This document shows, one piece after another, positions 43,704-56,075 of a stretch of 64,000 nucleotides of DNA. Under the pieces are notes generated by a model. The model did not search any database. It had not been told where the DNA came from and worked only from the letters and a program-made list of their open reading frames with translations. Each line of letters starts with the position of its first letter. The first letter of the stretch is position 1. The stretch covers positions 1,984,001 through 2,048,000 of the forward strand of contig NZ_CP016591.1 of assembly GCF_001698205.1 (NCBI RefSeq). The letters are read 5' to 3'. Origin of the DNA: Tsuneonella dongtanensis. Lineage in GTDB: Bacteria; Pseudomonadota; Alphaproteobacteria; Sphingomonadales; Sphingomonadaceae. A program made the translations under genes and the position numbers.

Positions 43704-43725
43704 GGTGGTGCGGCAAGACGCGGCC

Positions 43726-46422
43726 ATGTTGGGGAATGCGCCGGACGCCGATCAGGCCTTCGAGGAACTCGGGCCTTTGCCCGACGCTGCCCCTCGCCTG
43801 GAAATCGACACCGGGCGTGTTCCGCGGGCCCGAACTCCCCGTCGCAGACCAGATCGCGCTGTTTCGCCGAGAACGATTGGCGAGCGGCAAAACGCGTCCC
43901 TTCCTTCTTACTGGAACCGGATCGCGATATTTCTCCCCGCGGCCATGGTGCTTTCCGCAATCGCGGAGAGCTCTTTGCCTCCCTTTTCGTCGGTCGTCGC
44001 CGCTGGGTTTGCGATGGCGATCCTCCTTTGCTCACCCACCCTGTCCCGCGTCGAGCGCGCCATAAAGCCGCAATCGCCACAGTACTTCGCGATCATGGGG
44101 TTCGCCGTGATAGCGCCGATCGGCCTTGCTTCATTGGCCTTTTCGAACTGGATGGTGAACGGTTCGCTCGATTATCATTGGGGAGCCGCCTCGCTCATCT
44201 CGCTGACCGCGCTGACCACCGCGCTTCTCGGCAATCGCATCGTGCTGATTTTTACCGCTCAGGCCGTCTGCTGGTCGATCTACGCCCTTATCGAAGGTAC
44301 AGCTTATGCGGTGGGGGCCACGAGCGCGGCGGTCCTCGTTCTCGTGCTCGTCAGTCGCTACCAGGCACGCATCAACAAGGCGGAAGCCGAGCGCCAGGCG
44401 GCCCTCGAGCGCCGCCAGACACGAGCGGAAGATATCCTTCGCGATTACGAGGAGACCGGGCAGGGGTGGTTTTGGGAAACCGATCGACGCGGACAGATCA
44501 TCTATCTGTCCGATAGTGTCGCTCGCTCACTGAACCGTGAAAAAGCGGAATTGGATGGGCGTCCATTTGTCGAGCTCTTCGACCTCGCCTGCGACAGCCG
44601 TGAGGGGGAGCGGACACTCCTTTTCCACTTGTCCGCGCGATCCGCCTTTACCGAACTAGCGGTCCGATCGAGCAATCCGGACGAGGAGCGCTGGTGGTCG
44701 ATCAACGGTCGCCCCATTTTCGACGAGTATCACAATTTCTGCGGCTTTCGCGGGTCTGGCACCGACCTGACCGAGAAGAAGCGAAGCGCGGACCAGGCGT
44801 CCAGGCTCGCGCGGTTCGACTCCCTGACAGGTCTGGCGAACCGCTTCCAGATGTCGCAGAGCCTGGAAAAGATTCTCGCCAATCCCCTGGAAATGCAGCG
44901 CGAGTGTGCGGTTTTCCTGCTCGACCTCGATCGTTTCAAGCATGTGAACGATACGCTTGGCCACCCGGCGGGCGATGCACTGCTGCGCCAGGTCGCCCAG
45001 CGGCTCGAACGGACAGTCGGAAGATCGGGCCGCGTCGGCCGCCTGGGCGGTGACGAATTCCAGGTGATCGTGCCGGGGCGGATCGACCGGGCTCAGGTCA
45101 GCGCCCTTGCGAAGGACATCATCACAGCAATCTCGCAGCCCTATTCGATCGAGGGTCACCGCGTGGTGATCGGGGTCTCGGTCGGGATTGCAATTTCACC
45201 CGACGACGGCACGACGAATGAAGCGTTGATCCGTAACGCCGACCTTGCCCTCTACGCCGCAAAGGACGGCGGACGCGGTCGTCATCATTTCTACGCGCCG
45301 GACCTGCACGCTGACGCCGAGGAAAGAAGCAAGCTAGAACGAGACTTGCGCGACGCCATCGCCGAGGGAAACCTCGAACTCCATTATCAGCCGGTCGTGC
45401 ATATCGCGACGGAGAAGATCGTCGGATTCGAAGCGCTGCTGCGATGGCACCACCCCGCTCACGGGTGGATGTCGCCTGCGAAGTTCATACCGATCGCCGA
45501 GGAATCTGGACTGATCGGTGCGATCGGCGAATGGGCGATCCGCACAGCCTGTCAGGACTTGGCACGATGGCCACACGATGTCCGCTGCGCCGTCAACGTG
45601 TCGACCCTCCAATTCAAGAATCCCGAACTGCCCTTCATCGTCGAAGATGCGATCGATTCAGCGGGCATCCATCCCGGACGGCTGGAATTGGAAATTACCG
45701 AAAGCGTCTTCCTCACCGACGACGAGGGAACCGACGCGATGTTCGCGGCGCTGAAGCAGATCGGCGTCCGATTGGCCCTCGACGATTTCGGCACCGGGTA
45801 TTCATCGCTGGGCTACTTGAAGAAGGCGCCATTCGACAAGATCAAGATCGACCGGAGCTTCGTCCAGGGTGCTACCGAGAGGGGTAGCAAGAATGGGGCG
45901 ATCATCGCGTCCATCACCAGTCTGGCCCAGGCTCTGGGAATGGATACCACTGCCGAAGGGGTGGAAACTCTCGATGAACTCGATCTTGTCCGGATGTTCG
46001 GTTGCAGCCACGTCCAAGGCTACATCTACGACCAGCCTCTTGATGTCGTAACCGCCAGTTCCCGCTTGGCGACCGGCTTCGATGCTGTTGCGAAGGGGCC
46101 TCGATCAGCGAGGGCTGCCCGTCACTCGATGCTCAGGCGGGTCATTCTCGAGCATCAGGGCCAGTTCTACAACGGAACGATCCGCAATATTTCGCAGACG
46201 GGTGCGCTCGTCGAGGGGCTGTGGAACGTGCCCGTTGGGACGATTTTTTCCATCGCGCTTTCCGATTCCGTGTCGATGACTGCGACGACGCGGTGGTCCA
46301 GCGAGGATCGGATGGGTGTGGAGTTCGCGGTTCCGCTTGTCAGGGGATCTTCGGGCATGTTCGCCGCACTCGATGGGCCGGCGGCCAGTTCCGAAAGCCA
46401 CCTGTTGCGCCGTACGGCCTGA
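43726..46422 (+). CDS. Membrane GGDEF-EAL-PilZ protein (c-di-GMP turnover and sensing)
   Basis: This protein of about 898 residues has this domain order: hydrophobic helices (about 65-190), PAS (about 235-365), GGDEF with intact GGDEF at 441-445, EAL with E569-A-L571 and DDFGTGYSSL, then PilZ. Both enzymatic motifs are complete (ITES, DDFGTG, KIDRSFV, AEGVE), so it could make and degrade c-di-GMP. The PilZ part keeps NxSxxG (N821-I-S-Q-T-G) but has H-S-M-L-R where RxxxR is expected. ATG 43726 was chosen; GTG 43705 is an alternative. A paralogue follows directly. Confidence 0.9.
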   Translation: MLGNAPDADQAFEELGPLPDAAPRLEIDTGRVPRARTPRRRPDRAVSPRTIGERQNASLPSYWNRIAIFLPAAMVLSAIAESSLPPFSSVVAAGFAMAILLCSPTLSRVERAIKPQSPQYFAIMGFAVIAPIGLASLAFSNWMVNGSLDYHWGAASLISLTALTTALLGNRIVLIFTAQAVCWSIYALIEGTAYAVGATSAAVLVLVLVSRYQARINKAEAERQAALERRQTRAEDILRDYEETGQGWFWETDRRGQIIYLSDSVARSLNREKAELDGRPFVELFDLACDSREGERTLLFHLSARSAFTELAVRSSNPDEERWWSINGRPIFDEYHNFCGFRGSGTDLTEKKRSADQASRLARFDSLTGLANRFQMSQSLEKILANPLEMQRECAVFLLDLDRFKHVNDTLGHPAGDALLRQVAQRLERTVGRSGRVGRLGGDEFQVIVPGRIDRAQVSALAKDIITAISQPYSIEGHRVVIGVSVGIAISPDDGTTNEALIRNADLALYAAKDGGRGRHHFYAPDLHADAEERSKLERDLRDAIAEGNLELHYQPVVHIATEKIVGFEALLRWHHPAHGWMSPAKFIPIAEESGLIGAIGEWAIRTACQDLARWPHDVRCAVNVSTLQFKNPELPFIVEDAIDSAGIHPGRLELEITESVFLTDDEGTDAMFAALKQIGVRLALDDFGTGYSSLGYLKKAPFDKIKIDRSFVQGATERGSKNGAIIASITSLAQALGMDTTAEGVETLDELDLVRMFGCSHVQGYIYDQPLDVVTASSRLATGFDAVAKGPRSARAARHSMLRRVILEHQGQFYNGTIRNISQTGALVEGLWNVPVGTIFSIALSDSVSMTATTRWSSEDRMGVEFAVPLVRGSSGMFAALDGPAASSESHLLRRTA

Positions 46423-46493
46423 AGAGGGTTAGCGAATGCTTCAGCATTGGGCTGTATTCTTATCGGGTCGCCCGGGGAAACTGACACGCCGCC

Positions 46494-48683
46494 ATGGCCC
46501 TGAACTCATTTTTCACACGTAACCCGACCAATCGGCGTGACCGCTCGCGTTCCCCTTCGGGGCAGGACCCGGCCACTCGACTGGCCTTGCTCGATCAGTT
46601 CGAGGACTCGGGCATAGCGTGGCTGTGGGCGACGGATGCTGCCGGAATGCTGAGCTACATATCGGCCAGCGCGGCTGACCAACTTGGCAAAGCCAGCGAA
46701 GAGGTAATCGGCAAGCCACTCTCTACCCTTTTCCTGCCGGATAGAGCCGAAGATGAGGACAAGGCCGAACGGCCGCTCGCTTTCCAGCTTCGGGCCAAGA
46801 ACTCGATCTTCGAATTGCCGGTTCGCCTGGCGGTTGACGACCGGGAAGTCTGGTGGGCGATTAGCGCGCGCCCTCAGAACGATGCGAACGGCGAATTCCT
46901 CGGGTATCGGGGGAGTGCAAAGGACATAACAGCGATCCGCGAGACCCAGCGGGATGCATCTCGGATGGCGCAGTACGATGCGCTTACAGGGCTGGCGAAC
47001 CGGCACCGGATGACCAAGCGCCTCACCGCAACCCTGACAGCTTATAAGGCTGCCAAGCGCACCTGTGCCCTGATGATGCTCGATCTCGACCGATTCAAGC
47101 AGGTCAACGATACCTTGGGCCACCCCGCTGGTGACGAACTTCTGAAGCAGGTTTCCCAGCGCCTCGAGCGGATCATTGGCTCGCGCGGGGAAATCGGGCG
47201 GCTTGGCGGAGACGAATTTCAGGTCATGCTGCCTGATATCGACGACCGCGGCCGGCTGGGCGAAATCGCCACGAGTGTCATTCAAATGATCTCGCAGCCC
47301 TATTCACTCGACGGTAGCAGGGCGATCATCGGTACATCCGTCGGCATTGCGATAGCACCGTACGATGGCATCGAGACCGACGAGTTGGTAAGCAGCGCCG
47401 ACCTCGCGCTGTATTCCGCCAAGGGCGGGGGCCGGGGGCAGTACCGGTTCTTCTCGAGCGAACTGAAGGACGGGGCGCGGCTTCGTCGGCAGATCGAGGA
47501 GGACTTGCGCGACGCGATCCAGACCGATCAGCTGGAAATTCATTACCAACCGATCGTTCGTACTTCCGATCACCGTGCAACCGGTATGGAAGCACTGGTT
47601 CGCTGGAACCATCCAGAGCGCGGGTTCATCAGTCCTTCGGAATTCGTACCCGTTGCCGAGGAAACCAACCTCGTAAACGCGCTCGGTGAATGGGTGCTCA
47701 GGCGCGCGTGCGAAGAGGCAGCGCAATGGCCTGATTCCCTCACCGTTGCGGTCAACGTGTCGGCGATCCAGTTCTCCGCGACCGACCTGCCGAAAATCGT
47801 GCGTTCCACGCTCGATCGCACGGGCCTTCATCCGTCTCGCCTGGTGCTCGAGATAACCGAGAGCGTATTCCTGGGCGACCCTCAAGGTACGCGGGCGATG
47901 CTCAAGGCGCTCAAGAAAGTCGGCGTGCGCCTGGCGCTCGATGACTTCGGCACAGGGTACTCGTCACTCGGCTATCTGAGCAGCGCGCCGCTCGACAAGA
48001 TCAAGATCGACCGTAGCTTTGTCGCCGGCGCGACGGAAAGCGATACAAACAACGCGGAGATCATCGCGGCGATCGTTGGTCTCGCCCGTGCACTAAACAT
48101 GGAAACCGTTGCCGAGGGTGTCGAGGCAATGGACGAGTTGAAGCTCATATCGGGGCTCGGTGCCAGCCACATCCAGGGCTGGATATTCTCAAAGGCTATG
48201 CCGCAATCCGAGTTGCTCGCCCGATTGCAGGAGGGCGGGCTCAAGTTCGTTCCCAGCGGTCCTCCCAAACATCGGACCGACCGTCGCTCGACGTACCGAA
48301 AGGTCGGCGTGATTCATGAGGACCACCGGTACGAGGTCGTCATGAGGAACCTTTCGAAGACGGGCGCAGGGATCGAAGGGCTGATCGACGTGCCACTGGG
48401 CACCCAACTGGTCCTGGATCTCGGCGATGGACAACTGGCCGTATGCAAGGTCGTGCGATCAGCGGGATTTACGCAAGGCCTTGAATTCGAAGACAGCCTG
48501 ATCAGCGACGGCGCCGACGGCCTGTGCACGCGGCACCGCATCAGCCCCTACGCACTCGCCGCCGCGGGAATGCCGCTCGCCGCGTTGCCGCCAGGCTATT
48601 ACAATCCGCCGCAGCGCGATGACGGACTACGCCGGAAGCCAGCGTTTCTGCAGGCGGACCTGTCGAGATCGCGCGCGGCGTGA
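46494..48683 (+). CDS. Soluble PAS-GGDEF-EAL-PilZ protein
   Basis: This 729-residue paralogue of the preceding protein lacks the membrane helices. Order: PAS (about 30-145), GGDEF with GGDEF at 238-242, EAL at 366-368 with DDFGTGYSSL and KIDRSFVAG, and PilZ with R598-S-T-Y-R602 and N619-L-S-K-T-G. All catalytic and ligand motifs are intact. The C-terminal tail after PilZ is proline and glycine-rich. Gap to the upstream gene is 71 bases, same strand, so the pair arose by duplication and is likely co-regulated. Confidence 0.9.
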   Translation: MALNSFFTRNPTNRRDRSRSPSGQDPATRLALLDQFEDSGIAWLWATDAAGMLSYISASAADQLGKASEEVIGKPLSTLFLPDRAEDEDKAERPLAFQLRAKNSIFELPVRLAVDDREVWWAISARPQNDANGEFLGYRGSAKDITAIRETQRDASRMAQYDALTGLANRHRMTKRLTATLTAYKAAKRTCALMMLDLDRFKQVNDTLGHPAGDELLKQVSQRLERIIGSRGEIGRLGGDEFQVMLPDIDDRGRLGEIATSVIQMISQPYSLDGSRAIIGTSVGIAIAPYDGIETDELVSSADLALYSAKGGGRGQYRFFSSELKDGARLRRQIEEDLRDAIQTDQLEIHYQPIVRTSDHRATGMEALVRWNHPERGFISPSEFVPVAEETNLVNALGEWVLRRACEEAAQWPDSLTVAVNVSAIQFSATDLPKIVRSTLDRTGLHPSRLVLEITESVFLGDPQGTRAMLKALKKVGVRLALDDFGTGYSSLGYLSSAPLDKIKIDRSFVAGATESDTNNAEIIAAIVGLARALNMETVAEGVEAMDELKLISGLGASHIQGWIFSKAMPQSELLARLQEGGLKFVPSGPPKHRTDRRSTYRKVGVIHEDHRYEVVMRNLSKTGAGIEGLIDVPLGTQLVLDLGDGQLAVCKVVRSAGFTQGLEFEDSLISDGADGLCTRHRISPYALAAAGMPLAALPPGYYNPPQRDDGLRRKPAFLQADLSRSRAA

Positions 48684-48730: not shown

Positions 48731-50548
<1,818 letters not shown>

Positions 50549-50549
50549 C

Positions 50550-50571
50550 GACCGCAGGCGCCTAAGCGAGA
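50550..50571 (+). repeat. Degenerate direct repeat, copy 1
   Basis: GACCGCAGGCGCCTAAGCGA begins two bases after the lepA stop. It shares GACCGCAGGC and TAAG/TTAGA-type endings with the copies at 50577 and 50732. Confidence 0.4.
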
Positions 50572-50576
50572 ATTAC

Positions 50577-50600
50577 GCAGCAACCGCAAGCTTAGAAGCC
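50577..50600 (+). repeat. Degenerate direct repeat, copy 2
   Basis: GCAGCAACCGCAAGCTTAGA is the core of this copy, matching copy 3 at most positions, with A/G exchanges. Confidence 0.5.
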
Positions 50601-50731
50601 GGTGGCCGAAGGCCAGCGGGAGGATCGGCCGACGTCGGCGCGCAATGGTGAGGATCGACGTCACGTGCCGGACGGAGCGTGTGCGCCGGCAAGCGCGGAG
50701 CGGCGCGTGGCGGCGAAGGTCCCCCGAGATT

Positions 50732-50757
50732 GCGCTGCGACCGCAGGCTTAGAAAGC
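50732..50757 (+). repeat. Degenerate direct repeat, copy 3
   Basis: GCTGCGACCGCAGGCTTAGA lies within this copy, about 156 bases after copy 2; the two share roughly 18 of 21 bases. Function unknown; no third copy lies at the right edge of the island. Confidence 0.5.
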
Positions 50758-50780
50758 GAGAGGCTGTCATCATGGCCGGG

Positions 50781-50798
50781 GGCAGGGGAGCCCCTGCC
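50781..50798. repeat. Perfect 8-bp inverted repeat
   Basis: GGCAGGGG, AG, then CCCCTGCC forms a strong hairpin with a two-base loop. There is no U-run, so it is not a clear terminator. It lies 78 bases before the Sce7726-type gene. Confidence 0.5.
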
Positions 50799-50817
50799 GA
50801 GCTGAGCCCTTCGACAA

Positions 50818-50832
50818 CGCGGCTTTGCCGCG
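50818..50832. repeat. Short hairpin CGCGGC-TTT-GCCGCG
   Basis: A 6-bp perfect stem with TTT loop, immediately after CCTTCGACAA. It may belong to a dispersed intergenic repeat; this is inferred from the look of the element. Confidence 0.4.
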
Positions 50833-50876
50833 GCGGGACTTGCCATCTGGTAGCGCGCGATTATCAGCCCCTCAAC

Positions 50877-51524
50877 ATGGATGAGGTGCAGATCAAAGCT
50901 GAAGTTCTCAACTTAATCCGAAGCCAATCGACGCGGCGCAGGCGGCCCGTGGTGGCTACGGAATTCCAGATACTGAAGGGCCAAACCCGCGCTGATCTCG
51001 CGATTCTCGATGACGAGTTCATCGGCGTTGAAATTAAGTCAAAAAAGGACACGCTAAAACGACTCGTAAAACAAACTAACGACTATCGTAATTGTTTTGA
51101 CAGAACAGTTTTGGTTTTAGATGAATCGCATCTTTTAGCTTACCTTGGTATTAAACTTCCATTCTGCGACGTGTGGACATTCGACGAGAACAAGAATCTT
51201 AGGCAATTTAGCGAAGGACGTCACGAGCGCGTTCCGGATGAAAACCTTTACCGCATGCTCACGCTTAAAGAGCGAGAAATGGCTTTCCGAGATGCGCGCT
51301 TCAGCGGGTGGTCGCAGCGGGAAATTTTTCTCCATTTCTTCAAGTTGAAGTTCGGCCCTACAAGCGATCAATTCTGGAAATCGGTCGGAAGGCGAAAGAT
51401 TCTTCGCCATGACATCCAATTGCTAAGCAGGTTCCGCGAAATCCGACTGAAGGCAGAGAAAAACGTTGCGGCCCGAGATGAGGAGTGGGCAGCGTGGCTT
51501 CAAGCTCAGAACATCGAGCCCTGA
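50877..51524 (+). CDS. Sce7726-type protein, PD-(D/E)XK nuclease-like
   Basis: This 215-residue protein has the look of the Sce7726 family. A restriction-endonuclease-like core reads R-A-D40-L-A-I-L-D-D-E-F-I-G with E52-I-K54 and SKKDTLKRL, the D...ExK layout of PD-(D/E)XK enzymes. Function is unknown. The codons and bases around 51020-51180 are clearly AT-richer than the flanks, a sign of transfer. No ribosome binding site is seen before ATG 50877, so a leaderless message or an earlier start is possible. The stop directly abuts the stop of the convergent operon (51524/51525). Confidence 0.82.
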   Translation: MDEVQIKAEVLNLIRSQSTRRRRPVVATEFQILKGQTRADLAILDDEFIGVEIKSKKDTLKRLVKQTNDYRNCFDRTVLVLDESHLLAYLGIKLPFCDVWTFDENKNLRQFSEGRHERVPDENLYRMLTLKEREMAFRDARFSGWSQREIFLHFFKLKFGPTSDQFWKSVGRRKILRHDIQLLSRFREIRLKAEKNVAARDEEWAAWLQAQNIEP

Positions 51525-52592
51525 CTACTCATCCCAATCGTCTTCTGTCTCTTCCGCAAGTGCGGGATCGTCGTGAAATGTCTGGACTTGGAGATGCAGA
51601 TTTATCCGGGCTGCCGTCGCTTTCTGTGGGCTACTGATTGCCGACCGATCCCCAGCGATTGTGCGCTCAATCATTTGAGTGCCCCAAACTCGGATATTTG
51701 GGTTCCAAAACTGCGTGGCGGCGAGCAGTCGTGCCTGTGCTTGGTATCCCGAAAATCCAGATTGCGTTTCATGACGGAAGAAGCGCCAGTCTGCCGCAAG
51801 AGGATAATCAATGCGGGGATAGGGTTGTCCGCCGCCGCCGCCTGGACGCTCGATCCGTGCGCTACCCCGATCGCTGTAGATTAGTTCAGGAATCCCTAGG
51901 GCCGTCAACTGGTTGAAAAGCCGACGCTCGTATATCTGCTGAGCGGGCAAATTGTCGAAGGACGATGGGAATGATGTGGCTGATAAACAGATGAACGCGT
52001 CTGGGCAGCCATTCCGGATCGTCGCGATGTATCCCTGTGCCAGAGCAGCGACTTGCAAGTGATCTGCTGCGACCGTTTGAAAATCGAGGATGAACACAAC
52101 GTCGTCGCCGCCGTCAGTCAAGTTTCCCACCCTCTGGGCAAGGGCGCCCATTCCCGGAAAAGCAGGTCGTGGCAGATGTATAACTAGCCCTCGGTCGAAC
52201 CCCCAGAGGCAATCAATCTGCGCGCTTTCCTCAACGGTATTAGGGCTTAGCTGCGCGACTGGGATAAAGTTCTCGTGATCCTCGATAAAACCGCACCACG
52301 ATGCGAAACCCCCATCCGCGCGGCGCAATCGATCGAGTTCGCCGAACACTGGACGTTGCTGTGTGGGCTCGCGGTCGCCAACTCCAACGATAATCGGGCG
52401 CTCCCCATAAGCCTCTTCAAGTCGGTCGAGAGCGTTTTGAAGGCGATTTGACCCTACCCAAGGACGCAGGGGCACGTAGGGTAGCATCCGATCTTTTGTG
52501 CTGTCTGGTAACTCCTCAAGCGCCCTCATTTCGCCCGGTCGAACCGAAAGCAAGGGAATGTACGCCAGACTGTCGAAATCTCTAAGCGCCAT
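51525..52592 (-). CDS. T4-beta-like (beta family) protein
   Basis: This 355-residue protein is likely of the beta family named after phage T4 beta (resemblance from memory). Blocks are SLAYIPLLSVRPGEMRALEEL, PLRPWVGSNRLQNALDRLEEA, VVFILDFQTVAADHLQVAAL and PRIDYPLAADWRFFRHE. No catalytic motif is recognised, and there is no TM or signal peptide. The family is found beside Sce7726-type genes in other genomes, to my knowledge. Its start overlaps the ImmA/IrrE gene end by 11 bases, making it the last gene of a three-gene operon. Confidence 0.7.
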   Translation of the reverse strand: MALRDFDSLAYIPLLSVRPGEMRALEELPDSTKDRMLPYVPLRPWVGSNRLQNALDRLEEAYGERPIIVGVGDREPTQQRPVFGELDRLRRADGGFASWCGFIEDHENFIPVAQLSPNTVEESAQIDCLWGFDRGLVIHLPRPAFPGMGALAQRVGNLTDGGDDVVFILDFQTVAADHLQVAALAQGYIATIRNGCPDAFICLSATSFPSSFDNLPAQQIYERRLFNQLTALGIPELIYSDRGSARIERPGGGGGQPYPRIDYPLAADWRFFRHETQSGFSGYQAQARLLAATQFWNPNIRVWGTQMIERTIAGDRSAISSPQKATAARINLHLQVQTFHDDPALAEETEDDWDE

Positions 52593-53094
52593 CTATGTCG
52601 ATCCGAAGTGTCTCCAGCCTCACTGACATCGCTGGTTCAGAGACATTCAGCTCATTTGCAAGATGCGCGAGTCGATCACCCACATCTTTTTCGATTGCGT
52701 CATTTAATGCTGCGTCAATTAGATGTGGCGGCATCAATATATCGGCTGCAAGGCGGTTAGCCTCCTGCTCCCTGCGATCACTCAAGGACGAACGATACAG
52801 CTTATCGTCCTGAATGCCATTTCCAATCTGATCTCGGTGAAGAAGAAAATGGGCTAGTTCGTGAGCCACTGTGAAACGCTGCCGCCGCTTTGGGTCATGC
52901 CGATTGACGCGTATGGTGTAAGTGCCATCTGGCGCGCGGGTGATTTCGCCTGATATCCCTGGCGAAAGCGTAGCAGCTTTCACTTCTACGCCTAAGGCCG
53001 TTGCGATCTCGCGCAGCCTTACGGCACCTTCGGCTTGGAAGCCGAGAATAGTCTCCCGAATACTAGCCGCTAGACCTCTCCACTCAGGAGACAT
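52582..53094 (-). CDS. ImmA/IrrE family metallopeptidase
   Basis: This 170-residue zinc metallopeptidase has the HExxH site at residues 78-82 (H-E-L-A-H), preceded by RRQRFTVA. A downstream acidic ligand lies in REQEANRLAADILMP, usual for ImmA/IrrE. Family members cleave phage repressor-like regulators (ImmA) or act in stress control. No HTH repressor gene is adjacent, so the target is not apparent. It starts two bases after the upstream gene's stop and overlaps the beta-family gene. The lower GC supports transfer with its neighbours. Confidence 0.9.
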   Translation of the reverse strand: MSPEWRGLAASIRETILGFQAEGAVRLREIATALGVEVKAATLSPGISGEITRAPDGTYTIRVNRHDPKRRQRFTVAHELAHFLLHRDQIGNGIQDDKLYRSSLSDRREQEANRLAADILMPPHLIDAALNDAIEKDVGDRLAHLANELNVSEPAMSVRLETLRIDIDGA

Positions 53095-53096
53095 AT

Positions 53097-53591
53097 TTAG
53101 TTCCCGTCATCGTTTGGCAGCGCATCTGGCGCGCCTTCTCCTTCAACATCGTCCTGATAAAGCTCATCATCCTTGGCCCGATTTCCAAAGGTAACTTCGT
53201 CCACCCGAACTTTGATCCGCTCTTCCATCTCGTCTGAGTTGATCTCCTCGCTGATCGCTCGTTCAAGATAGCGACGAATCTCTCCGTTCTCAATCTGTTC
53301 CTTTACCTCCTCAACTGCCGCCTCTTGGGCGGCTAGAGTGGCGCTGCGTTTGAGTTCAGAAAATCCCCAGACCGCCGCGATGGCAAAAGCGACGCCAAGG
53401 ACCGTCACAAGTACACCAACCGCCGTCAACAGGACTGCCGCGAGGTCTAGGTAGCTGAAGCCATTGGGAGTGAGATCTCCCAGCCAACCCAGGAGTATGA
53501 CACTCGCGAAGGCGCCCGTGATCCCCCCTACGACTAAGGGCAAAATCCAGCCATTCAGACCAGAAGTGGTGTTTAGTCTGCGGTTGCTCAT
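53097..53591 (-). CDS. Two-TM membrane protein with acidic cytoplasmic tail
   Basis: This 164-residue protein of unrecognised family has two hydrophobic helices (about 14-36 and 46-76). A coiled-coil-like charged region (KRSATLAAQEAAVEEVKEQI, about 80-125) and a very acidic C-terminus (YQDDVEGEGAPDALPNDDGN) follow. It is the first gene of the operon with the ImmA/IrrE and beta-family genes. A membrane-anchored effector or sensor arrangement is conceivable (inference only). Confidence 0.72.
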   Translation of the reverse strand: MSNRRLNTTSGLNGWILPLVVGGITGAFASVILLGWLGDLTPNGFSYLDLAAVLLTAVGVLVTVLGVAFAIAAVWGFSELKRSATLAAQEAAVEEVKEQIENGEIRRYLERAISEEINSDEMEERIKVRVDEVTFGNRAKDDELYQDDVEGEGAPDALPNDDGN

Positions 53592-53771
53592 GCCTTTGCA
53601 TAATGGGGCTACGCGATGTTGCCTATATCAACCTGCAAACAGAAAAGACGTCATGGAAGTAAATCCCATGACGTCGAACGGGTTCGGTTGACGCCGACCC
53701 GCCGGCCGGCTCGCTCGATGCGCTGCGCGCACTGGCTCGTAACGCGTCGCTAGGCTATCCAAGCTTTGGCG
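53592..53771. other. Intergenic region at right edge of accessory island
   Basis: These 180 bases hold an inverted repeat (53647-53675), a small palindrome CGAAC-GG-GTTCG at 53675-53686 and GC-rich sequence with the palindrome CCGGCCGG. The operon promoter for the minus-strand genes should lie here. No tRNA or duplicated attachment site was recognised. Confidence 0.5.
53647..53675. repeat. Perfect 10-bp inverted repeat, candidate operator
   Basis: GACGTCATGG and CCATGACGTC are separated by 9 bases. It sits 56 bases upstream of the island operon start at 53591, where a repressor site would be expected. There is no U-run on either strand, so a terminator is less likely. Confidence 0.55.
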
Positions 53772-54590
53772 TTACTCGCCTTCGAGCGACCTCCAATCAT
53801 CCTCCCCCGCATCAAACGGCTCCAGTGCCTCCACCGGGTCGCCGAAGCCGTTGATGTCCATGCAGTCGCCGACGGGGGCCCAGTCCTTGTCCGGGGGCAT
53901 GATCACGAAGTCGGTGAGCGGGTCGTCCTCTGGCTTTCCCTCTTCCTCGCGCCGGTGCCAGGCGGCGAGTTCGGACAGCTTGGCCTGCATCGCCTCGATC
54001 TCGGGCAGGGTCATCGCGACGGGATCGAAGTGTTCGATCATCGCGGCGTTGATGTCGTCCTTCTCGGCCTGCGAAGGTACCGGCATCGTTATCGACATGG
54101 GATTGCCGCTCAGCCGGTCCGCACCCGGGTCGAAGTAGCTGGCGGAGAGGCGGCGGCCGTCGCTCCCGCGCATGTTCATCCTGAGGCAGAACATCAGCAG
54201 CCGGTCGTTCTTCACGCGGCGGAAGCCTTTCAGCTTGCCGCCGACGAACACGGGGGAGAGCTGGCCGTTGAGCGCGCGTTCGAACGCCTCGTCCTTCAGC
54301 CGCTGGACTCCGAAATCCAGTGCCGCTTCCCACGCGCGGCGGAACCCCTCGCTGCCGCGCTGGCGGCGGAGGTAATAGGCGCCCTCGGGGCTCATGTTGA
54401 CGTGCATCGCGGCGCGCTTGACGCTGCCGGTGTCGGCCAGCGCCCCGATGAAGGCGCGCTGGCGCTCGGGCGTCCACCCGTCGTGGCGGAACTTGCGGGG
54501 GACGGGCTCGAAGGTGGGGAGGTGGTGGCCGGCGGCCTCCATCTCGGCAAGCGGGGTGCGCGTCTCGCGCGGGTCTTTCTTGCGGGTCAT
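53772..54590 (-). CDS. HTH-containing hypothetical protein
   Basis: This 272-residue protein has an N-terminal helix-turn-helix-like stretch WTPERQRAFIGALADTGSVKRAAMHVNMSPEGAYYLRRQ (about residues 39-77), then a helical basic region, then an acidic Gly/Asp-rich tail. Similar proteins are common and unnamed in Sphingomonadales, to my knowledge; DNA binding is inferred. ATG 54590 follows AGGAGAAG. The codons return to high G/C, unlike the island just upstream. Confidence 0.7.
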   Translation of the reverse strand: MTRKKDPRETRTPLAEMEAAGHHLPTFEPVPRKFRHDGWTPERQRAFIGALADTGSVKRAAMHVNMSPEGAYYLRRQRGSEGFRRAWEAALDFGVQRLKDEAFERALNGQLSPVFVGGKLKGFRRVKNDRLLMFCLRMNMRGSDGRRLSASYFDPGADRLSGNPMSITMPVPSQAEKDDINAAMIEHFDPVAMTLPEIEAMQAKLSELAAWHRREEEGKPEDDPLTDFVIMPPDKDWAPVGDCMDINGFGDPVEALEPFDAGEDDWRSLEGE

Positions 54591-54696
54591 GCGGGGCTTC
54601 TCCTGTCGGTCGGGCAAACCGGACAGGGTGAAGCAGATTCGGGCCGTGTAGGAAAATGCGGGCGAGGGTGCTCCGGCCGGGGGGCCTCGCGGCGCC

Positions 54697-55131: not shown

Positions 55132-55274
55132 GGTAAAATCCTCTTCCCTTGTGGTTCAAGCGTTTAGCGGCGATTGGTTCGCAAGCCGTTAACCAACGCG
55201 CGCGCGATTACCCGGGGGAGGAGCGCGCCAACTTCACTTTGCGTTCACGCAAGTGCCGGTTATAGGCGCCGGTC

Positions 55275-56075
55275 ATGCAGACCCGCACGCGCCCCTCCGC
55301 CAAGCTCGTCCTCGCAACCCTCGCGCTCGGCGCGTCGCTCGCCATTACGGGCTGTGCGGGCAGGGCCGGTCCGAAGGACACCGCCTATGTCGCGCGGGAC
55401 GTGGAATCGCTCTACGCCGCGGCCAAGGCCCGGCTCGACCGCGGCCAGCCCAAGATCGCCGCCGCGCTGTTCGACGAGGTGGAGCGCCAGCACCCCTATT
55501 CGCCCTGGGCGCGCCGGGCGCAGCTGATGAGCGCGTTCAGCTATTACGTCGCGGCCGACTACACCAAGGCGGTGGAGAGCGCGCAGCGCTTCCTGTCGAT
55601 CCACCCGGGCAATCGCGACGCGCCCTATGCCTATTACCTGATCGCGATCAGCTATTACGAGCAGATCAGCGACGTGACCCGCGACCAGAAGGTAACCGAG
55701 CAGACCCGCACCGCGCTGCAGGAGCTGATCCGCCGTTACCCCGCGACCGAATATGCGAGCGATGCCCAGCTCAAGCTCGACCTGGTGAACGACCACCTCG
55801 CGGGCAAGGAGATGGAGATCGGCCGATATTACCAGCGCAGCGGCAACTGGCTCGCATCGCAGATCCGCTTCCAGAATGTGGTCGACAACTTCCAGACTAC
55901 CAGCCACGCACCCGAGGCGCTCTATCGCCTGGTCGAAAGCAGTCTGGCGCTCGGCGTGCCCGAGGAAGCGGTGAAGAACGCCGCCGTGCTCGGAGCGAAC
56001 TACCCCGGCAACGAATGGTACGAAAAGGCCTACGCGCTGGTGCAGAAACGCGCGCCCGGCGCTTCCGCGAGCTGA
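55275..56075 (+). CDS. bamD: Outer membrane protein assembly factor BamD
   Basis: This 266-residue lipoprotein of the BAM complex, which inserts beta-barrels into the outer membrane, has lipobox ITGC with Cys27. TPR-like helical repeats follow: YAAAKARLDRGQPKIAAALFDEVERQHPYSPWARRAQLM, and the family block YAYYLIAISYYEQISDVTRDQ. Length and the YSPWA motif are standard. The usual recN neighbour is not downstream here. Confidence 0.96.
   Translation: MQTRTRPSAKLVLATLALGASLAITGCAGRAGPKDTAYVARDVESLYAAAKARLDRGQPKIAAALFDEVERQHPYSPWARRAQLMSAFSYYVAADYTKAVESAQRFLSIHPGNRDAPYAYYLIAISYYEQISDVTRDQKVTEQTRTALQELIRRYPATEYASDAQLKLDLVNDHLAGKEMEIGRYYQRSGNWLASQIRFQNVVDNFQTTSHAPEALYRLVESSLALGVPEEAVKNAAVLGANYPGNEWYEKAYALVQKRAPGASAS

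Follow-up and report, generated by a model that had tools for sequence, protein, structure and literature searches.

A probable mobile anti-phage cassette of a Beta-centred family behind lepA in Tsuneonella dongtanensis

Organization of the locus

The window analysed here is a 64,000-nucleotide stretch of the Tsuneonella dongtanensis genome (contig NZ_CP016591.1, positions 1,984,001 to 2,048,000), and the subject of the present work is a set of four genes within it, encoding a nuclease-like protein of the Sce7726/cII family, a homologue of the Beta protein of satellite P4, an ImmA/IrrE metallopeptidase and a small membrane protein. An earlier note on this DNA, written from the sequence alone, placed these genes between lepA and a helix-turn-helix (HTH) gene, and the open reading frames confirm all four there (Table 1). 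The membrane protein, the peptidase and Beta are encoded in that order by an operon on the minus strand, on which the Sce7726 gene converges from the plus strand; the stop codons of the Sce7726 and Beta genes touch (51524/51525), in agreement with the note's description of the nuclease-like gene as lying stop to stop with the operon. The overlapping ends that the note ascribed to the operon are present between the Beta and ImmA genes, which share 11 nt, but not between the ImmA and membrane-protein genes, which are separated by a gap of 2 nt. From its ATG the Sce7726 protein has 215 amino acids (aa); a GTG at 50679 would lengthen the open frame, yet homologues are mostly 190-270 aa long.

The cassette is AT-richer than its flanks, as had been claimed, with a GC content of 0.536 compared to 0.65 and 0.667 on the two sides, and only 1 of 613 window tiles of equal length is as low. 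One terminator-like stem-loop lies upstream of the operon and spans the right edge of the variable segment, but it can be regarded as indicative only, since six terminator-like sites were found where 4.2 are expected by chance. The claim that tRNAs and integrases are missing also stands, in that no tRNA is present in the window and none of the genome's six tyrosine-integrase matches falls inside it, other recombinase types not having been sought.

Table 1. Features of the cassette and its surroundings (window coordinates)
Feature	Coordinates	Strand	Remarks
Sce7726/cII-family protein, PD-(D/E)xK nuclease-like	50877..51524	+	215 aa from ATG; NF033832, PADLOC cll
Beta protein	51525..52592	-	355 aa; homologous to Beta of satellite P4 and to PD-lambda-2 C
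ImmA/IrrE (M78) metallopeptidase	52582..53094	-	170 aa; Pfam Peptidase_M78
Membrane protein	53097..53591	-	164 aa; from hydropathy
Variable segment between conserved flanks (cassette)	50839..53663		blastn against sister genome G506
lepA	48731..50548	+	left flank of hotspot; in 11/11 genus genomes, the window's included
terS-like HTH gene	53772..54617	-	right neighbour of hotspot; phrog_4044 6.7e-15
Terminator-like stem-loop	53647..53675	-	12 pairs; upstream of operon, at right edge of variable segment

A defence hotspot behind lepA

None of the ten other genomes of the genus contains the DNA of the cassette at the spot that follows lepA. In the comparison with sister genome G506, blastn homology stops at 50838 and resumes at 53664, apart from one 61-bp inverted match, and the cassette is therefore, within the limits of blastn, the unit that has been exchanged. 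The contents of the corresponding intervals (L148-L157) were evaluated by scanning ten of their proteins, from G506 and G880-G885, with G429 and G886 outside the scan. The G506 interval holds a cyclase (2.4e-91) of the cyclic oligonucleotide-based anti-phage signalling system (CBASS) together with an E2-like protein, those of G883 and G885 hold C5 methyltransferases, that of G880 holds another ImmA protein, and that of G884 holds a HARE-HTH protein detected by Pfam only; the proteins scanned from G881 and G882 produced no match. In G879 nothing intervenes between lepA and the conserved right flank (window 55217-56073). The stretch 50549-53771 behind lepA is thus a defence hotspot in the genus, for which the evidence by position comes from PADLOC matches in four of the ten sister genomes. 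The word "island" in the earlier note is too large for what is found, which is a single cassette of about 2.8 kb in a hotspot that holds one system.

The right-hand neighbour that the note called an HTH gene is present, but it resembles terminase small subunits. Homologous DNA follows the variable segment in 6/10 sister genomes, and six weaker relatives of the gene are found elsewhere in the genome (L122-L127). A terS-like neighbour could suggest that the locus is a prophage remnant, but this reading was rejected because the gene has those relatives elsewhere and is resident at the site in the six sister genomes. Similar genes also occur near four Beta loci of the same family (L045-L048).

Families and predicted structures of the four proteins

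The Sce7726 protein matches NF033832 sce7726 at 1.6e-24, the PADLOC cll model at 9.1e-17 and, by BLASTP, P4 cII at 7e-7. Residues E29, D40, E52, K54 and Q66 are invariant in all 37 aligned sequences and contain the E-D-ExK pattern of a PD-(D/E)xK active site, so the protein is, as far as its sequence indicates, nuclease-like with an intact catalytic motif. In sequence searches of solved structures, the protein hit nothing beyond R.SwaI (0.038) and a dynein chain (0.96). The AlphaFold2 model (predicted local distance difference test score, pLDDT, 95.1) has 3dnx as its sole solved-structure match at or below 0.001 (E 9.3e-5), while weaker matches include SfsA, YaeQ, XPF and BamHI; all five are taken here to be proteins of the PD-(D/E)xK class.

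The peptidase matches Pfam Peptidase_M78 at 8.9e-21, and its best PADLOC match is capP (1.2e-28). Its HExxH motif occupies positions 78-82, with H78, E79 and H82 conserved in 29/29 aligned sequences and the downstream E109 in 28/29, and the nearest solved structures, found with profile A2, are IrrE (3dte, 6.8e-13) and CapP (7t5t, 1.3e-12). The protein has no Xre domain, and its match to PD-Lambda-2_B is confined to the peptidase part of that profile (281-369, 8e-10).

The membrane protein was described earlier as having two transmembrane segments, and hydropathy bears this out, with hydrophobic segments at 16-34 and 53-71 separated by a short loop and followed by a charged acidic tail; the inferred topology is accordingly two segments plus a tail. 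No family exceeded the cut-off, the best values being 0.0011 in Pfam, 2.7e-4 for LeoBC in PADLOC and 0.0053 in PHROG.

Beta matches Pfam Beta_protein at 3.2e-52 and PADLOC beta at 1.2e-41. The label "T4-beta" in the earlier note appears to be a slip for P4, whose Beta is matched by tblastn with 27.9% identity over 94% (2e-24); a search of 50,697 phage records at 1e-5 returned only three P4 records and one Pasteurella phage. The match of the window protein to PADLOC PD-Lambda-2_C is only 0.0057, while P4 Beta matches the same model at 8.1e-14. Among solved structures, the only relative by sequence is a designed protein at E 0.13. The structure prediction that the note had proposed for this protein was carried out with AlphaFold2 (pLDDT 93.8) and gives alternating strands and helices. 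Two Foldseek matches reach 0.001 or better, one to a designed protein (6.5e-4) and one to 2y7d (9.1e-4, the best natural one), with TM-scores of 0.4-0.5 among the matches listed. Most of the named proteins among the 50 matches listed are presumably TIM-barrel enzymes, and the predicted fold of Beta is alpha/beta and TIM-barrel-like. The possibility that Beta is itself an enzyme was considered, but no catalytic claim is made, because the C-terminal ends of the strands in the predicted barrel show no clear enrichment of conserved polar residues. A protein of Gordonia phage Powerball (BFVD A0A5J6TRS2) resembles the Beta model at 5.7e-13 with a TM-score of 0.69 and 14% identity, and the family may therefore extend past the reach of sequence searches.

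Relation to described systems

Two described defence systems contain Beta homologues. The gop-beta-cII system of P4 protects against lambda and P1, and gop, which is toxic without beta, forms with it a likely toxin-antitoxin pair (Rousset et al. 2022, PMC9122126); the name "gop beta cll" appears among the DefenseFinder systems (PMC11291487). In the P4 record, gop and beta share one strand and are faced by cII, annotated as a sce7726 family protein. The cassette resembles this system in its Beta and Sce7726/cII homologues, in their convergent arrangement and in the small membrane protein that leads the operon. It differs in that P4 has no ImmA peptidase there, in that Gop has no detectable similarity to the membrane protein, which shares with it only the position in the operon and the membrane character, and in that the window Beta belongs to a clade other than that of P4 Beta. 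In PD-lambda-2, an abortive defence, the B component, in which an Xre domain is fused to a peptidase, is toxic on its own, and the HigB-like A neutralises it; the C component is described as "related to a P4 phage antitoxin", and defence requires it (Vassallo et al. 2022, PMC9519451). The likeness lies in the ImmA-type peptidase as second gene and the Beta homologue as third; the differences are that PD-lambda-2, as described, begins with a HigB-like gene, has an Xre-fused peptidase and consists of three components without a nuclease. None of the five window proteins scanned matches PD-Lambda-2_A.

The cassette is filed under neither system, because it has no Gop homologue, no HigB-like protein and no Xre fusion. 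The earlier statement that no named system has this composition holds for the exact set, but not for its parts, since Beta plus Sce7726 corresponds to beta plus cII of gop-beta-cII and ImmA plus Beta corresponds to B plus C of PD-lambda-2. A partner gene beside an ImmA peptidase is also characteristic of RosmerTA (RmrT/RmrA) and of other ImmA-based toxin-antitoxin pairs; Beta and Sce7726 are not known to be part of RosmerTA. CapP, a short ImmA-like metallopeptidase like that of the window, belongs to CapH-CapP, which takes part in CBASS regulation, and neither CapH nor a cyclase is matched among the five window proteins scanned. RmrA often carries an HTH domain (PMC10440598), and the RmrA models match solely the peptidase region of the window protein, which places it outside the HTH-ImmA antitoxins. 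No publication naming the membrane-ImmA-Beta-Sce7726 set was found in titles and abstract starts among the matches listed, in a collection short of subscription papers and preprints, though one may exist; the parts and the logic of the cassette are known.

Co-occurrence of the four genes

Whether the four genes belong together was evaluated in several samples. Among 385 genomes of the class, a count that includes the window's genome, Beta occurs in 12 and Sce7726 in 10; seven have both, always as adjacent genes (Fisher p 4e-10, or 9e-9 when the window's genome is left out). Searches of class, family and phylum yielded a broad sample of 33 Beta loci besides the window, with the fragment L063 left out. 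Of these, 14 consist of membrane protein, short ImmA protein and Beta, the membrane protein being recognised by profile in 11 and by hydropathy plus position in three; in 11 the ImmA protein is longer (294-497 aa), and in eight neither stands beside Beta. Sce7726 faces Beta in 20/33 loci, with every type of front module, and all four genes are present in 7/33; since the three-gene core is twice as frequent as the full set, Sce7726 is not obligatory. In one of the 14 membrane-ImmA-Beta loci (L049, 4980-8844) the Beta gene is broken up, two of its fragments being separated by roughly 2.8 kb of other sequence; that genome also carries an intact Beta, of the long-ImmA type, at L038.

The long-ImmA loci are related to PD-lambda-2 to differing degrees. 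All four long ImmA proteins scanned match PD-Lambda-2_B at 1.1e-65 or better, but of the six front genes scanned only that of L066 matches the HigB-like PD-Lambda-2_A (4.4e-27), while four show weak matches to PDC-M63A (5.6e-10 to 1.2e-4) and that of L070 matches nothing. Strict PD-lambda-2 is therefore only part of this branch.

When named genomes were scanned with patterns built on the six closest Betas, 32 loci were recovered. The sample leans towards the window's clade, since each of those six Betas came from a locus with Sce7726; three of its loci (L102, L103, L109) had already appeared in the broad sample, and L094 corresponds to the viral L077. The hosts are, judging by organism name, presumably Alpha- and Gammaproteobacteria, although one Micavibrio host is filed under Bdellovibrionota in the tree data. 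A facing Sce7726 match is present in 32/32 loci, ImmA in 31/32 (broken in two), and a match to the membrane-protein profile lies ahead of ImmA and Beta in 30/32, in one of them fused to ImmA. All four genes are intact and in order in 28/32. In the exceptions, ImmA of L099 is split and the membrane gene is not seen in place, Beta of L112 is truncated and its front genes are absent, L118 is decayed, and in L096 the membrane and ImmA frames are fused and Sce7726 is split; at L106 Beta and Sce7726 are separated by two additional frames. The earlier note had tied its reading to the four genes not being rare companions: in the close clade they are not rare, and in the broader sample the full set is less common. 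At L096 (3985-4995), which comes from a complete Sphingomonas genome, a single 336-aa frame covers both the membrane protein and ImmA. This fusion might be offered as proof of partnership, but it is not used as evidence, because Sce7726 is split at this locus too and decay or a sequencing indel is equally likely.

The set also occurs on mobile DNA. Among 13 Beta loci on viral contigs, three have the full set, one has its front cut by the contig end, four have the three-gene form and five are of the gop-beta-cII type, and the 63 neighbours of the eight non-gop loci include matches to integrases, portals and terminases. The cassette was also found on a conjugative plasmid. On a Neorhizobium plasmid (L002, 2465-3712) a reverse transcriptase gene (RVT_1, 2.2e-11) lies directly upstream of it. 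On an Azospirillum plasmid (L004, 3008-6813) the arrangement is a different one, in which Beta facing Sce7726 lies next to a divergent operon for a sigma-70-type factor, a small protein and a CapP-like ImmA peptidase (capP, 1.7e-62).

Shared descent

The Beta tree (76 sequences, quick search, midpoint root, with four repeats and five proteins shorter than 300 aa excluded) groups the front modules, with 12 label changes compared to 37 in shuffles. One side holds all 11 long-ImmA rows together with five Beta-Sce7726 rows (97), the seven Gop rows form one group (65), and the window Beta falls within a 36-row clade of its own architecture (Shimodaira-Hasegawa-like approximate likelihood ratio test, SH-aLRT, 98). 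On the sequence evidence there are three architectures, namely Gop-Beta facing cII; a front gene, a long Xre-ImmA protein and Beta, often with Sce7726; and membrane protein, ImmA and Beta facing Sce7726.

This tree bears on another explanation of the locus, by which it would be gop-beta-cII itself, its Gop having diverged and a peptidase having been added. The identical order, the convergent layout and the homology of Beta and cII all fit such a relationship, as does the placement of three membrane-ImmA rows (L040, L072, L074) beside the Gop rows in the free tree; a constraint holding all membrane-ImmA rows together is not rejected (approximately unbiased test, p-AU 0.502). The explanation is unlikely all the same, since the ImmA peptidase that P4 lacks is present in nearly every named-genome locus, and since homology of the membrane protein to Gop, sought by BLASTP and profile against P4 Gop, against the protein ahead of Beta in the Pasteurella phage Pmp11 and against PADLOC gop, gave nothing. 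The reverse derivation, in which the P4 system is a reduced form that lost its peptidase, may apply.

Co-divergence was measured on 33 complete loci, made up of the window, the plasmid locus L002, four broad-sample, three viral and 24 named-genome loci, with L040, L072 and L074 excluded. The pairwise distances of the four proteins correlate at r 0.68-0.83, a level reached in 0/2000 permutations; within two host groups the values are r 0.72-0.885. Shared host descent could raise all these values. The best-correlated pair is Beta and Sce7726, even though these are on opposite strands (r 0.83 overall, 0.87 and 0.885 within groups). A reading of the four genes as chance neighbours in an AT-rich variable stretch is in keeping with the absence of the cassette DNA from the spot in all ten sister species, but the identical gene order, the Fisher association and the correlated divergence refute it. 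The four genes form one unit that travels together, and the earlier description of a defence-like, genuinely co-occurring set is upheld by the counts, the Beta tree and the co-divergence.

The membrane proteins of this unit differ between the groups. In the alphaproteobacterial group, two hydrophobic segments with a short loop are found in 16/18 loci, L002 and L044 having only one over threshold. In the other group (15 loci) the N-terminus is mostly signal-peptide-like by eye, and a longer stretch precedes the last segment, so that the common core is the last hydrophobic segment and the tail.

Proposed function

Taken together, family membership, position, mobility and co-divergence make it very probable, as judged from sequence, that the locus is a mobile anti-phage cassette of the Beta-centred family. 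By analogy with the described systems, the best overall explanation is that it is a third Beta-family architecture acting by abortive infection, which is somewhat favoured. In P4 the front membrane protein is harmful without Beta, and in PD-lambda-2 an ImmA protein can be harmful and the Beta-type protein is needed for defence; the simplest reading of the cassette is a guarded membrane effector. In such a mechanism the membrane protein would be the effector and would damage the membrane once freed; this role in abortive infection is about as likely as not. Beta would hold the membrane protein in check and report infection, and upon sensing the ImmA peptidase would cleave either Beta or the tail of the membrane protein, although its assignment as a proteolytic switch is tentative. 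The Sce7726 nuclease would serve as a second arm that cuts nucleic acid, and the outcome would be that the infected cell is shut down and the population protected.

Several observations weigh against this mechanism or against its defensive context. The Beta-type protein of PD-lambda-2 is dispensable for toxin neutralisation (PMC9519451), which speaks against Beta as the keeper, and in RosmerTA it is the ImmA protein that is the antitoxin (PMC10440598), so that the role of ImmA in the cassette could be the opposite. The comparison of the membrane protein with P4 Gop gives a BLASTP E of 13 and an hhalign probability of 0.6%, the conserved polar residues of Beta are not gathered at the barrel mouth (7/81 versus 5/81 positions), and Sce7726 is absent from 7/14 three-gene loci of the broad sample. 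Finally, the neighbours of the named-genome loci are mixed: a scan of 93 of the 122 flanking proteins picked from 27/32 loci, in which 25 of 120 families are listed, found at least four integrases and at least three ResIII proteins as well as transporters and metabolic genes, and the defence-island signal around these loci is therefore not strong.

A restriction-like mode of action would assign the parts differently, with Sce7726 as the main effector that cuts invading DNA and the membrane protein, ImmA and Beta as a sensor at the entry site that licenses it. The close correlation of Beta with Sce7726, and the presence of Sce7726 with all front modules, are in keeping with this, as is the sequence of the gammaproteobacterial membrane proteins, in which the first hydrophobic segment looks by eye like a signal peptide with a periplasmic stretch behind it. 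It is nonetheless a doubtful alternative, given that ten membrane-ImmA rows of the Beta tree are without Sce7726, that gop is toxic in P4 when beta is missing (PMC9122126), and that no methylase or other self-protection gene is among the four open reading frames. An addiction or stabilisation module, that is, a toxin-antitoxin-like set which keeps its own DNA with little or no effect on phages, would account for the small operon of coupled genes and for its presence on a conjugative plasmid and in prophage-like contigs, and P4 gop/beta is a precedent as a likely toxin-antitoxin pair (PMC9122126). This is quite improbable, however, because two Beta-bearing relatives protect against phages (PMC9122126, PMC9519451), because the site alternates with CBASS and methyltransferases, and because a PD-(D/E)xK nuclease would be superfluous for it.

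On a wider view, gop-beta-cII, PD-lambda-2 and the cassette could be one modular immune family, in which Beta, an alpha/beta-barrel protein usually faced by a convergent Sce7726 nuclease, receives different front modules, namely Gop, a small gene with Xre-ImmA, or a membrane protein with ImmA. The third module would be a widespread, as yet unnamed system whose membrane protein and metallopeptidase kill the cell once infection releases them from Beta; this view can be put forward with middling confidence. Beta links two separately described E. coli defence systems, to which the present analysis adds a conserved third branch whose peptidase and membrane protein can each be mutated separately, a predicted fold for Beta, and a defence hotspot behind lepA in one genus. 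Outside the hotspot, two long tandem proteins, GGDEF/EAL-like by eye, occupy window positions 43705-48683 and end just before lepA.

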